Source: Clostridia bacterium
GTDB lineage: Bacteria; Bacillota; Clostridia; DSM-8532; SZUA-474
Assembly (NCBI GenBank): GCA_003251775.1
Contig: QKEK01000163.1
Coordinates: 1-50,996 of the forward strand
Reading direction: 5' to 3'
Length of the DNA: 50,996 bases
Position 1 is the stretch's first letter. Each line of letters starts with the position of its first letter. Positions 38,001 through 43,743 of this stretch are shown here, piece after piece. The translations under genes were made by a program, and so were the position numbers. The notes below the pieces were generated by a model. The model saw nothing but the letters and a program-made list of their open reading frames with translations, made no database searches and was not told where the DNA came from.

Positions 38001-38027
38001 ATCGCATCATAGTGTTTATGATGCGAT
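38001..38027 (+). terminator. Hairpin between hisA and the SNF2 module
   Basis: ATCGCATCAT-agtgttt-ATGATGCGAT. Confidence 0.5.
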
Positions 38028-38135: not shown

Positions 38136-39932
38136 ATGGAGCAACCTCGGTTTACAAATGTAGATTTGATTAAAATACAAAACAGGAGCAATAATATAAA
38201 CATGTTAATGGATTTAGTTCCTGTCAACATGTCGTTTAAGGATGCCTTTGGAATTGAAGAGCTTCATATAAACAAGTCTATAAATAATTCTCCAGACCAG
38301 TTAAAACTAAGCCTGTTGGCACATACTCTTTCTGATATGAAGAGGATAGATAATATTTCTGCAATAGATTTGCTTGAGGGTAGAATTGAGCCATATCCCT
38401 ACCAATTATCAGTTGCATTAAATGTACTGAAGGATAAGTCTAGCATTGCTCTTCTAGCTGACGAAGTTGGTCTGGGTAAAACAATAGAGGTAGGAATTAT
38501 CCTCAAGGAGCATTTTATTAGGGGGAATATTAACACAGTATTAATAATAACACCTAAGGCATTGGTAAATCAATGGCAGGATGAAATGAGAGAGAAATTT
38601 GATGAGGAGTTTCTGACACCAGAGGATGATGAATTTAGTATATCTGGAAACAGAATTATCTTATCATACGATAAACTTGCTAGAAATGTAGAAAGCTTCT
38701 TATGTAGAAAATGGGACTTAGTGGTCGTAGATGAAGCTCACATGTTAATTAATTCTCAATCAAAAAGAAGAAAGGCAATAGCTATGCTAGATAGGAGATA
38801 TATCCTGCTTTGTACAGCTACTCCGCTTTGTAATAAATTGACTGATATCTACAGCTTAGTAGATATTTTGTACCCTGGTATATTAGGCACCGAAAGAGAG
38901 TTTAAGAAAAAGTATTTCAATGATAACACAGGGCGTGTTTGCAAGAGTGATATGCTATATGATTTAAGAAAAATTGTATCAAAGGTCATGATTAGAACCT
39001 TAAGGAATGAAAGTGGTGTACCTTTTCCACAAAGATTTGTGTATTCACTTCGTGTTAATGGAGAAAAGCAGGAATATGAGCTGTTTGAGACAGTTATTAA
39101 CTATTTAAAAAAATTATACAGTTCATCATTAAGTAATAGTAAAAATAGATTTGTAATTATGAAAGAGGTTATTGCTGTTCAACAATCCTTGTCTAGTAGT
39201 CCAAGAGCTTTGATAAAAAGTATGGAAAATAGGATAAACAGAGATTTAGAGGATACTGATGTAATAAAAGTAATAATAGATAAAGCAATGCAGATAAACA
39301 ATTATTCCAAGATTGAGGCTCTTATGGAAACGTTAACTAAATTGCATAATGAGCAGGCTGTTATATTTACCTTACGTTTAGAAACTGCTTATATGCTGGC
39401 AGATATGCTTAATGAAAACTTTATGCCTACAAGAGTGTATGAAGGGCGATTAAGTGGACACGAACGCTATAACCTTGTAAATGCTTTTAGAGAAGGTAAA
39501 GTAAAATATTTAGTAGCAACTGATGCAGCAGCAGAGGGCTTGAATTTACAAACAGCAAGTGTTGTTATTAATTATGATCTTCATTGGAATCCTATGAAGC
39601 TTGAGCAAAGGATAGGTAGAGTTCATAGGCGTGGTCAGAAAAAAGATGTAAGTGTATTTAATATTGTTATTAAGAATACGATAGATGATTATGTGCTTAA
39701 AATTCTCTTTGAAAAAATCGATCTTTTTAAAATGACTATTGGTGGAATTGAGGCTGTGCTTGCTGACAACAATGAAGATAAGAGTATAGAGGAAACTATT
39801 GTAGACATTTTGTTAAGAAATAATAGTAAGAGGGATGTTGAGGCTGAGTTAGCAAAGTTCGGCAATGATTTAGGGTATAGAAAGGAACAAAATGCTCTTT
39901 ACGAAGAATTTTCGCAGCTTATTTTAGATTGA
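38136..39932 (+). CDS. SNF2/RapA-like DEAH-box ATPase
   Basis: LADEVGLGKTIE, VVVDEAHML, LLCTATPL, VATDAAAEGLNLQTA, LEQRIGRVHRRGQ. Confidence 0.92.
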   Translation: MEQPRFTNVDLIKIQNRSNNINMLMDLVPVNMSFKDAFGIEELHINKSINNSPDQLKLSLLAHTLSDMKRIDNISAIDLLEGRIEPYPYQLSVALNVLKDKSSIALLADEVGLGKTIEVGIILKEHFIRGNINTVLIITPKALVNQWQDEMREKFDEEFLTPEDDEFSISGNRIILSYDKLARNVESFLCRKWDLVVVDEAHMLINSQSKRRKAIAMLDRRYILLCTATPLCNKLTDIYSLVDILYPGILGTEREFKKKYFNDNTGRVCKSDMLYDLRKIVSKVMIRTLRNESGVPFPQRFVYSLRVNGEKQEYELFETVINYLKKLYSSSLSNSKNRFVIMKEVIAVQQSLSSSPRALIKSMENRINRDLEDTDVIKVIIDKAMQINNYSKIEALMETLTKLHNEQAVIFTLRLETAYMLADMLNENFMPTRVYEGRLSGHERYNLVNAFREGKVKYLVATDAAAEGLNLQTASVVINYDLHWNPMKLEQRIGRVHRRGQKKDVSVFNIVIKNTIDDYVLKILFEKIDLFKMTIGGIEAVLADNNEDKSIEETIVDILLRNNSKRDVEAELAKFGNDLGYRKEQNALYEEFSQLILD

Positions 39933-39963
39933 GGTAAGGTTGAAAGAAAATTACCAATTAAAA

Positions 39964-40027
39964 TGATTTAAATAGACAAGGTAAAAATATTTGATTTAGA
40001 TAGAGAAGGTATAAATATATGATTTAC
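39964..40027. repeat. 28-bp imperfect tandem repeat, ~2.3 copies
   Basis: tgatttaaatagacaaggtaaaaatatt / tgatttagatagagaaggtataaatata / tgatttac. Confidence 0.8.
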
Positions 40028-40070
40028 TTTCAACCTAGATTTGTGCCCGAAGAAAGGGGTGGACATAAAA

Positions 40071-42089
40071 ATGAAGGCATATAAAACTACTCTTCATCAA
40101 TTTGTAGAAGAATTTTATAGAATAAAAGATGCTAAGCTTGATATTATTGACGAAAATTATTTTAATGTCTCTTTTTCTGACGGAAGGATTTTACGATATA
40201 CCTATAACCCTAAGATAGCTAACGTAAACAAGGAAGTTAAGCTGCTTGCAAAAGGGACAAAGGCTTTAAATGAGCTTATAGAAGAAGCTGCTGTAAAAGG
40301 AGCATATTCAAATGTTGATATTGAATATACAAAGCAGTCTGTAGCTGAAAGCTTTAAGGAAAAAAAGTGTTGTGGCTTGTGTCAGTACTCAAATTTATGT
40401 GAGAGCAAGGATACTTGCTGTGATTTTTGTCATTATTATCGTGATTGTAATACAAGGATCATTAATGCTGAGTTCAAAGAGCTAGGAATAATTACACAGC
40501 AAACGCCAATAAACGCCATATGCTTTATTTTCAAGGTTGAGATTAATAATGACTATTCATTGGGCGATGGGCTACATAAGCGTATTATGATAAATATTAA
40601 TATGGATACAGGAGAGGTCCTGCCAGAGCTTATTGTTAATGGATTAGAAACCCTACAGATGAGAGAAGATATAGAGCCAAAAGGTATTTCCGATAAAGAC
40701 TATTATTTATACTATAAACAGGCAAGGGACATAGTGCAAGAGATGGTAATTCCACAGATGGAGCTATTTAAGCATCAGATGCAAGAGCCTTTAATGGAGA
40801 AAATAGAGGCTATTATTGAAAAACATTATATTGAATATCTAGATACATATACAAAAACAAAACCTGAGGAATCCGATGAGATGCAAAGTCAAGCAGTTCG
40901 CTTGTGTGAAAGAGAGTTGCAAGGTTATGCAGTAAATGTTACATTTAATCTGGAAAATGTATTTATTTACAAGACAAATAAGGATATTAGAAACCTAATA
41001 TTTAGTTTTAAGAACAAAGAAATTAGTAAAAATGTAGAAATACAGGTGGAGCTTTTTTTACATAAGGTTAATATTAGCTGTACTCATTGCGGTATAGAAA
41101 TAGATAAGGGATATATATGTTCAAATGAGCATGTATTATGCACAAAGTGCTCTACAAAATGTGAGATATGTGAGACTGTTTTATGTGATTCATGCGGAGA
41201 TGAAGGAATATCATGTTCTACATGCGGGTCATTGGTTTGTCCTGAGTGTACAGTTATATGTGAAAAGTGTGGAATTGAGGTATGTAATGATCATGCATAT
41301 TCTTGCAGCGTTTGTGGAAAGAAGCTTTGTATAGACTGCTATGAGTTATGCACTGAATGTGCTACAGTATTATGTAGTGAGCATGTGAATAACTGTGAAA
41401 TCTGTGAAGTGCCTATCTGTGAAGATCATTTGTATAAATGTGAGGTATGTGGTAAAGGACATTGTATAGAACACGTGTTTAAATGTGAAATGTGCGAAAA
41501 TGATAAAGGCTACCGATGTCAAGAGCATATAGTAGAGTCAAGCTTTAGTGCAAAGCATTTTTGTGGTAATCATATAGGAACCTGTTCTATATGTAAAAGG
41601 GTATTAGGAAAAAATGAAATAAATCTCTGTTCTATATGCTCAACTAATATGTGTCCAGAGCATTCGTATAAAAGCTCTGGTTGTGGAAAGCATTATTGTA
41701 AGCAGCACATAATTCAGTGTGAAGCCTGTGGAAAGCTATATTGTAGCTGTACAGAGTTTGATGAATGTATAATATGTGGTCAGAGCTATTGTGAAGGCTG
41801 TGTAAATGAAAAGGGTATATGCAAAATATGTAATGCTCTAAAAGAAATAAAATCTGAAAACACTATATTGAAAAAAGCAAAAGAGTTAGATGAAAGGTTA
41901 AATAAGTATACAAGGTTTTATTTTAGCAAAAGTGACAACAGATTAGTTATATATGCTCATAAGCTTATGGAAGACTATGTGGTGGTTTTTGATATTAACG
42001 ATAGTATTATTTATAGTAAACGAATTTTAATTAATGAAAGGTTAAAGCTAAGTGTTTCTAAGTTGTTATCAAAAAAGGAGGAGGAGTAA
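40071..42089 (+). CDS. Large Cys/His-rich protein: N-terminal domain, CxxC cluster, then tandem 15-aa zinc-knuckle array
   Basis: ~670 aa; repeated CxxCx4Cxx[CH] from 41079 to 41831. Confidence 0.85.
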   Translation: MKAYKTTLHQFVEEFYRIKDAKLDIIDENYFNVSFSDGRILRYTYNPKIANVNKEVKLLAKGTKALNELIEEAAVKGAYSNVDIEYTKQSVAESFKEKKCCGLCQYSNLCESKDTCCDFCHYYRDCNTRIINAEFKELGIITQQTPINAICFIFKVEINNDYSLGDGLHKRIMININMDTGEVLPELIVNGLETLQMREDIEPKGISDKDYYLYYKQARDIVQEMVIPQMELFKHQMQEPLMEKIEAIIEKHYIEYLDTYTKTKPEESDEMQSQAVRLCERELQGYAVNVTFNLENVFIYKTNKDIRNLIFSFKNKEISKNVEIQVELFLHKVNISCTHCGIEIDKGYICSNEHVLCTKCSTKCEICETVLCDSCGDEGISCSTCGSLVCPECTVICEKCGIEVCNDHAYSCSVCGKKLCIDCYELCTECATVLCSEHVNNCEICEVPICEDHLYKCEVCGKGHCIEHVFKCEMCENDKGYRCQEHIVESSFSAKHFCGNHIGTCSICKRVLGKNEINLCSICSTNMCPEHSYKSSGCGKHYCKQHIIQCEACGKLYCSCTEFDECIICGQSYCEGCVNEKGICKICNALKEIKSENTILKKAKELDERLNKYTRFYFSKSDNRLVIYAHKLMEDYVVVFDINDSIIYSKRILINERLKLSVSKLLSKKEEE

Positions 42090-43094
42090 ATGAGAAGTTT
42101 GAGTCTTTATGATAAGCTTTTAGAAATTTACTCAACAAAAAACAATCCTGAAAAAGCAGATTTATTGAGGTGTGTTGAAGTTTTTTTGCACAAAAAATAT
42201 GACTCCAAAAAAATAGAAGCAATTGTTGAAGGAATGATAAAAAAGTACGATTTTGAAATGCTAGCACAAAAAAGAAGGAATAGAAATTTATTAGCTAGTT
42301 CATTAGATTCAATTATACTAAATAAGGTACGCGAATCATATACTAGTGATAAAGAAATTAATATTGAAACTCTTTCTGAAATGCATCTGAAAGCACTAGC
42401 TAAGATTGTACTTATAAATTTGGGGTATGAGCTTTTGTATATTCCTCCAATTAATAGTGGAACAGTTGATTTTGTAGTTTACCGAAGACTATATAAGCGT
42501 GCGGTTTTTGTGCTTAATTCTGCCAATGCTTTTGAAATTAGTAAAAAACAGATAGAGAATGCTAGAAGGCTATCAACTCATCTGAATTGTGAGCAGCTAA
42601 TGGTATTTACAAATACTGATTTTAGTCAGGAGGCGTATAAATACGCTGAGCACTACCAGATATATTTAATTAACGGAAGTAAATTCACAATATTGGTAAG
42701 AGATCTTGTGGAGAGTAATCAGGAAAAGGAAAAGAAACTACAAGTGAAAGAAAATGAATTGCTTGAGGATGATAAACTGTTTCTTGAGGCTGATATTAAG
42801 AATGTAAAGACAAAGGTTAGGGTTATGGATGTTACATTTATTCCTGACTATGAAAAAAACGAGCTGGTTTTTGAAGGTGTACTTTTAAATGCAGGTAAGC
42901 ATCCTGTAACAAGGTTGATGGTTAATATAAGGCTCTATGGGAGAGACAGAAGCTTTAGGGATCTGTCCTGTGAATTAGGAGATTTGGCAAACGGAAACGA
43001 AGCTGAATTTAAAATCCAATTTGATATTTCTACTGAGTATGAATGGAAGAATATATATAAGTACATGATTAAGCTGAGTTATAGGAATATATAA
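42090..43094 (+). CDS. Mrr-like restriction-endonuclease-fold protein (possibly inactive) with C-terminal FxLYD-like domain
   Basis: LSEMHLKALAKIVLINLGYELLYIPPINSGTVDFVVYRRLYKRAVFVLNSAN...QLMVFTNTDFSQEAYKYAEHYQIYLINGSKFTILV. Confidence 0.55.
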   Translation: MRSLSLYDKLLEIYSTKNNPEKADLLRCVEVFLHKKYDSKKIEAIVEGMIKKYDFEMLAQKRRNRNLLASSLDSIILNKVRESYTSDKEINIETLSEMHLKALAKIVLINLGYELLYIPPINSGTVDFVVYRRLYKRAVFVLNSANAFEISKKQIENARRLSTHLNCEQLMVFTNTDFSQEAYKYAEHYQIYLINGSKFTILVRDLVESNQEKEKKLQVKENELLEDDKLFLEADIKNVKTKVRVMDVTFIPDYEKNELVFEGVLLNAGKHPVTRLMVNIRLYGRDRSFRDLSCELGDLANGNEAEFKIQFDISTEYEWKNIYKYMIKLSYRNI

Positions 43095-43251: not shown

Positions 43252-43743
43252 ATGGATTATAAAACAAATCTTGAGCTTGTAGATGAATTAAGAAAGAGAA
43301 CAAATTGTAGCTATGAAGAGGCTAAGGCGTTACTTGAAAAGCACAATTACAATATTGTTGAAGCAGTAGTTGATTATGAGAGATCACACAATGTGAATAT
43401 ACCCCACGGTGGTTTTTATAATAATCAAAATAATTGTAGTGGCTTTCATTCAACAAAGGGTTTTATTAGAAAGTGGTATGAAAAGGGAAAGACAACTAGA
43501 TTTGTTATAGAGGATGACGAGAAGAAGACAGTTATTAATATATCAATGAATATTTTCATTTTATCAATATTACTAGCTTTTTACTTTGTATTAGGCGGTT
43601 TAATTCTAGCTGTTATGACTAAATGTAGAATTAGGATTAAAAAGGCTGAGGGTGATGACGTAAACATCGGCAAGGTGATTAATAATGTTACAAATACTGT
43701 TACAAACTCTGTAAAGAATACTATGGGTACAGAAACAAAATAA
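43252..43743 (+). CDS. DUF4342-like protein with N-terminal UBA-like region and one TM segment
   Basis: ELVDELRKRTNCSYEEAKALLEKHNYNIVEAVVDYERS...TRFVIEDDEKKTVINISMNIFILSILLAFYFVLGGL. Confidence 0.75.
   Translation: MDYKTNLELVDELRKRTNCSYEEAKALLEKHNYNIVEAVVDYERSHNVNIPHGGFYNNQNNCSGFHSTKGFIRKWYEKGKTTRFVIEDDEKKTVINISMNIFILSILLAFYFVLGGLILAVMTKCRIRIKKAEGDDVNIGKVINNVTNTVTNSVKNTMGTETK

Follow-up and report, generated by a model that had tools for sequence, protein, structure and literature searches.

What might a SNF2 motor ATPase, a chain of zinc knuckles and an Mrr-like protein do together? Genes for three such proteins lie side by side in a contig of a Clostridia bacterium (QKEK01000163.1, assembly GCA_003251775.1); the whole stretch analysed, 50,996 nucleotides, is called the window here. 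A first, sequence-only reading had suggested that the trio senses or remodels DNA or RNA polymerase complexes, or acts in defence. The source genome consists of 326 contigs (3.4 Mb), and its gene content suggests a spore-forming, low-G+C clostridium. The arrangement is rare and apparently undescribed: a literature search, for which most subscription papers were outside reach, found neither a description of the trio nor an experiment on any array protein or on YqhG, the protein to which gene 2 is related (see below). YqhG, encoded beside the YqhH motor, is labelled as having 'unknown function'.

Organization of the locus

The three genes are co-directional on the plus strand and occupy positions 38136..39932 (gene 1, YqhH-like SNF2 motor ATPase, 598 aa), 40071..42089 (gene 2, 672 aa) and 42090..43094 (gene 3, 334 aa). 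These limits are those of the sequence-only reading except for the start of gene 2, which is likely shifted to ATG 40071. This codon is directly preceded by the Shine-Dalgarno-like sequence GGGGTGG, and is therefore a more likely start than the alternative TTG at 40041. The resulting gap between genes 1 and 2 is 138 bases long and holds 2.3 copies of a 28-base direct repeat (39963..40026, plus strand). The abutment described for genes 2 and 3 is exact, the stop codon TAA (42087-42089) being followed without spacer by ATG 42090.

A terminator-like hairpin of 12 pairs (38001..38027, plus strand) parts hisA from gene 1, suggesting that the trio is a unit of its own, although a single hairpin is weak evidence when two were found against 1.4 expected. 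The promoter attributed to the trio does not rise above chance: 23 promoter-like sites were found against 28.2 expected. Housekeeping genes (hisA-like, dnaE and others) surround the trio, and no mobile gene was seen adjoining it, as had been stated. A recent foreign origin was rejected, the G+C content of the three genes (0.32-0.33) being like that of the window (0.34). A downstream gene (43252-43743) encodes DUF4342 together with a stretch weakly resembling UBA. Nothing was found to link it to the trio, and a ubiquitin-like system, considered on account of this stretch, was rejected because no supporting gene was noticed nearby.

Relatives of the trio in bacteria and archaea

A homologue of gene 2 was detected in one of 98 other genomes (G046, 38% identity over the length) and in none of 32 further genomes belonging to its order. 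In a class sample of 391 genomes the only strong matches were the window genome and G046. A first scan of genome contigs gave no match; a second returned only the G046 locus again (DUMO01000063.1, a contig of a Clostridiaceae MAG). When the phylum was searched by profile (398 genomes), G416 came up as well (E 6.7e-45), followed by a tail of weak matches. The latter (G657, G634, G415, G586 and others) had no SNF2 match in the stretch examined and were discounted as Cys-rich proteins of other kinds. Absence in relatives was judged on a sample of mostly draft genomes. No match to gene 2 was found in viral contigs and phages.

Translated search of plasmids with gene 2 detected relatives in Haloferax lucentense, Halorhabdus tiamatea and Halocatena salina; the haloarchaeal sampling consisted of plasmid records. 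In all three plasmids the order is SNF2 gene, array gene, restriction endonuclease gene, as in the window, and the genes mostly overlap by a few bases. The recurrence of this order in the second clostridial genome and the three plasmids bears out the claim that genes 1-3 belong together. Both clostridial trios lie among housekeeping genes and not in a defence island, whereas the archaeal trios, on plasmids, have mixed neighbours. A core function, proposed from the location between hisA and dnaE, lost ground: the neighbours differ in G046, and gene 2 was not found in the 32 same-order genomes. In G416 no Mrr gene adjoins the pair; the third gene there encodes Helicase_C_3 and a weak Tfb2 match (L027 101-1708, minus strand).

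Some features of the haloarchaeal loci were recorded separately. The Haloferax array gene (L024 7302-11039, NZ_CP104744.1) is a Cys-rich frame of 1245 codons annotated only as small hypothetical proteins on the opposite strand. Two of the trios are flanked by proteins of unknown family (L024 4555-5391 and 12059-12952; L025 4645-5493 and 11728-12624), which look alike by eye and lie beside a DEAD/ResIII helicase of 950-980 residues; they perhaps belong to a larger haloarchaeal unit. Short haloarchaeal SNF2 plus YqhG-like pairs lacking the array, found on two plasmids (L123 and L124, 6001-12251), adjoin genes for an ATP-dependent DNA helicase and a PD-(D/E)XK family protein; the Haloglomus pair has a DUF499/HNH/DUF1156 cluster on its opposite side.

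Gene 1 encodes an intact SNF2 motor

Gene 1 matched SNF2-rel_dom (PF00176, E 1.2e-34) and Helicase_C (E 3.3e-27), and the motifs DEVGLGKT, VVVDEAH and QRIGRVHRRGQ confirm that, as first reported, all SNF2 motifs are kept. The protein has no room for an N-terminal or C-terminal domain of the RapA type. Its best curated family models include DrmD, DpdE, RapA, BrxHI and HmaA; the DrmD, DpdE and RapA scores are all well under the cut-offs. Membership was rejected for RapA (NF003426, 155.6 bits with a cut-off of 576), for Dpd (DpdE, 211.8 of 500 bits) and for DISARM (DrmD_b, 246.8 of 950 bits), and no drm gene was recognised among the examined neighbours. With such scores, membership of DISARM, which had been offered as an example, is not supported.

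Other trios aside, the kin of gene 1 are SNF2 proteins adjoining YqhG (PF11079) proteins; identity with a bacillar protein of this kind was 33% over 509 residues. A tree built from 44 SNF2 proteins joined the window protein to that of G046 with full support; the haloarchaeal proteins formed one clade and the YqhH-like proteins another, and YwqA-type proteins were far from gene 1. Because of long branches, the deep branches and the placement of a protein from G690 (see below) are uncertain. Its sequence places gene 1 among the SNF2 motors of the YqhH/RapA kind, with the motor intact.

Gene 2 opens with a YqhG domain probably related to the C-terminal part of RapA/BrxH-type motors

Gene 2 had no meaningful match in Pfam, NCBIfam or PADLOC, and the window protein alone did not match PF11079. 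The G416 protein exceeded the PF11079 cut-off (E 2e-11, residues 9-258). When a profile of eight YqhG proteins was compared with that of the gene 2 family, the two matched with 98.8% probability; the matched region, 271 columns long, stops immediately ahead of the array. The two clostridial gene 2 proteins alone gave a weak match (28.8%), so the link depends on intermediates. By the family profile, genes 1 and 2 belong with the YqhH-YqhG pairs, in which a SNF2 motor adjoins a YqhG-domain protein. Gene 2 consists of the YqhG domain (approximately aa 7-334, including a separate Cys cluster, aa 100-126), the array (approximately aa 337-587) and a small C-terminal domain (approximately aa 610-660). 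The sequence-only reading had seen an unusual Cys/His array, which stands and has a 15-residue period; the YqhG domain, which makes gene 2 more than an array, had been missed.

In a sample of 299 genomes, 28 were positive for PF11079, and a SNF2 gene adjoins yqhG in 27 of them; in the other (G568) the contig breaks off at the YqhG match. Homologues scattered without the helicase, which would have spoken against a module, were thus not the pattern encountered. The plain pairs are chromosomal and occur in about a tenth of the sampled Bacillota. PF11079 found no match in the window genome, whose other strong SNF2 protein belongs to a different type; the trio may therefore occupy the niche of the plain pair there.

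The connection with RapA was traced stepwise. The YqhG/gene 2 domain matched the C-termini of one-chain BrxH/RapA-like SNF2 proteins with about 96-97.5% probability, and the C-termini of one-chain SNF2 proteins (haloarchaeal, BREX-associated) matched those of E. coli-type RapA with 93-95%. Compared directly, the gene 2 family and RapA gave 0.6-1.8% with the first alignments and 18-53%, still weak, after addition of intermediates, the register being the same across the Spacer region; these values come from profiles of small alignments, enlarged after the first weak result. Unrelated controls stayed below 2%, except one overlap artefact at 9.6%. The best PDB matches of the gene 2 model in Foldseek were three RapA structures (E 1.5e-3 to 5.7e-3), only a lead given a largely low-confidence query: the AlphaFold prediction used two sequences, and the YqhG part was poorly modelled. 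In view of the profile links through one-chain SNF2 proteins, the best reading of the YqhG domain is as a C-terminal portion split off from this type of motor. As this domain opens gene 2, genes 1 and 2 are a variant of yqhH-yqhG and, by profile, a split RapA/BrxH-type motor.

The zinc-knuckle array varies in length

The array (41079..41831, plus strand) comprises about 15 CxxC-x4-CxxH/C knuckles, mostly in a 15-residue register (unit CxxC-x4-CxxH/C-x3). The gene 2 frame has 61 Cys; a spacing of 15 is shared by 30 Cys-Cys pairs and a spacing of 30 by 25 pairs, with single figures at most neighbouring spacings. AlphaFold modelled residues 390-590 (pLDDT about 70-91) as a repeat that combines short strands with a helical turn. 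The Cys/His pattern suggests that the array binds zinc. In the three genes to which it was applied, Tandem Repeats Finder detected no tandem array at the DNA level; the repeats therefore did not arise by recent duplication.

The related proteins form a ladder. At the bottom are plain YqhG without array and short haloarchaeal forms with at most one or two knuckles; a few knuckles are present in G572, G614, G471, G429 and G509, and the proteins of the window, G046 and G416 reach about 12-16 strict units. Halorhabdus (115 Cys) and Haloferax (150 Cys in frame), with clearly more units, are at the top. The length of the chain runs from about 15 to 40 or more repeats. Such wide variation in the length of the arm would suit a recognition or scaffold device.

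In one genome the parts appear to be fused. A single frame of G690 (L028, G690:C57, 2126-7519, minus strand; 1798 residues) encodes a SNF2 motor, a YqhG-like middle and a very long array of 15-residue repeats, in which most Cys, and with them most zinc ligands, are replaced by other residues (CEVTGKRV... units). It apparently joins motor, YqhG-like part and array in one chain, the middle being assigned by position and appearance. Array ends near-identical to that of G690 occur in G790 and G573.

Gene 3 has an Mrr fold, in most copies with an altered active site

Gene 3 scored 32.7 bits against Mrr_cat (PF04471; gathering score 21), in agreement with the resemblance first noticed. A helical N-terminal part precedes the Mrr-fold domain (aa 94-200) and a beta-rich C-terminal part (aa 232-333). 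The latter, an addition in the clostridial proteins, is seen in a low-confidence model (single-sequence AlphaFold, pLDDT 42) and has a weak FxLYD match below the cut-off (E 0.021).

The catalytic residues were judged by alignment with four reference Mrr proteins. All four, and Halocatena gene 3, have the Asp and the Q-x-K. In the window protein Asp127 is kept, and Q is replaced by F and K by L; likewise, the proteins of G046, Haloferax and Halorhabdus keep Asp and lack Q and K. GSGDxG is lost in the window and G046 proteins. In G046 a Lys lies one position off the catalytic column, so a shifted active site is possible. With Q-x-K kept only in Halocatena, the five trios have one probable nuclease and four probable pseudonucleases. 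The helicase-nuclease pair that had been envisaged would thus lack a working nuclease in the window genome, where genes 1 and 3 are probably a motor and a pseudonuclease.

Possible functions

Remodelling of DNA or RNA polymerase complexes, already proposed from the sequence, stands as the best guess, though we would put it somewhat below an even chance: genes 1 and 2 would be a split RapA-type remodeller of DNA-bound complexes, serving genome maintenance under stress. Gene 1 would be an ATP-driven translocase on double-stranded DNA, whose Spacer/C-terminal part is supplied as a separate protein by the first half of gene 2. The adjacency in 27 genomes and the one apparent fusion suggest that the two proteins form a complex. 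The zinc-knuckle chain would hold or read a partner, be it nucleic acid, RNA polymerase or some other protein, and the Mrr-fold protein of the window genome would most likely bind DNA or the complex without cutting. Travelling together on DNA, the three proteins would remodel or displace a complex that has stalled there, RNA polymerase being the most likely one. We infer the RapA-like action, the partner of the array and the non-cutting role of gene 3.

Bacillus relatives of the pair point, by analogy, to transcription or repair. HepA/YqhH is listed among RNA polymerase-interacting translocases, and deletion of hepA in B. subtilis has mild effects (PMC7385302). Sensitivity to UV is seen when yqhH is knocked out in B. 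thuringiensis (PMC10054049). Insertion of ICEBs1 into yqhG is tolerated (PMC3715440). Within the Spacer of RapA, Asp744 touches the beta' subunit of RNA polymerase at its zinc-binding domain (PMC8501970). It is odd, for a maintenance role, that the archaeal relatives are on plasmids. The apparently active Mrr of one relative (Halocatena), the lack of RapA's N-terminal domain and the weakness of the direct match to RapA also count against this reading.

A serious rival is defence against phages or plasmids, in which the motor would scan DNA, the array would sense the invader and the Mrr-fold protein would cut, or signal without cutting. The plasmid location of the archaeal trios, the active site kept by the Halocatena Mrr, the patchy distribution of gene 2, the presence of DrmD, DpdE, BrxHI and HmaA among the best models of gene 1, the one-chain relatives of the motor in BREX loci and the DUF499/DUF1156/HNH cluster beside a short archaeal pair agree with such a role. 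It is opposed by the housekeeping surroundings of both clostridial copies, the loss of Q-x-K in four of five gene 3 proteins, the chromosomal location of the plain pairs, and the lack of a meaningful PADLOC match for genes 2 or 3 and of any match in phages or viral contigs. We consider defence less likely than not, and rank remodelling above it after weighing the plasmid-borne archaeal copies and the one-chain BREX motors against the Bacillus leads.

The pair could also be an old housekeeping motor and gene 3 a decaying, functionless nuclease riding along. The loss of Q-x-K and GSGDxG in the window and G046 would fit decay; a full open frame that exactly abuts gene 2 in both clostridia, with 35% identity along its whole length, would not, and retention of the fold in four genomes after loss of Q-x-K suggests a non-catalytic role, making decay improbable. 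An E3-ligase-like or LIM-like protein-handling array unrelated to DNA is highly improbable, since its weak structural resemblance to LIM, RBR and uncharacterised giant-virus proteins and the UBA-like stretch downstream are offset by weak PDB scores, by the absence of any ubiquitin-like gene noticed nearby and by the tie of all closely related array proteins to a SNF2 motor.

A bolder reading, which we regard as rather unlikely, takes the trio as a new three-part DNA-surveillance system common to bacteria and archaea, with a split RapA-type motor, the length-variable zinc-knuckle chain as recognition arm, and an Mrr-fold protein that is a cutter in some lineages and a non-cutting reader in others.

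The resemblance of YqhG to the detached C-terminal part of RapA/BrxH-type motors offers a testable idea of the job of YqhG. The zinc arrays show that, in bacteria as well as in archaea, the YqhG part can acquire a long arm of repeats. Four of five gene 3 copies have lost Mrr catalytic residues, a hint that a nuclease fold can persist in a motor complex as a part that does not cut.

Comparison with known systems

The closest counterpart is yqhH-yqhG of Bacillus (HepA/YqhH and YqhG, PF11079), where, as in the window, a SNF2 motor of about 570-600 aa is followed by a YqhG protein; there YqhG is plain, without array, and there is no Mrr partner. E. coli RapA shares the ATPase core, and its Spacer/C-terminal part corresponds, through intermediates and in the same register, to the first half of gene 2. 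In contrast to the window proteins, RapA is one chain with an N-terminal domain, and has neither zinc array nor Mrr partner. The SNF2 cores of DrmD (DISARM), BrxHI and BrxHII (BREX) and DpdE (Dpd) are of the same broad group as gene 1, and BREX-associated SNF2 proteins carry a C-terminal domain homologous to the YqhG part of gene 2. Unlike the window pair, these proteins are single chains with other partner genes. DrmA-DrmB of DISARM provides an analogy only: there, too, the zinc-bearing C-terminal module of a helicase is a separate, adjacent gene (PMC12458937), but the helicase is of the YprA and not the RapA family, and the module is DUF1998 and not a knuckle array. Gene 3 resembles the type IV restriction endonuclease Mrr in its PF04471 match and in keeping D127, and departs from it in the window by the loss of Q-x-K and GSGDxG and by the additional N- and C-terminal parts.
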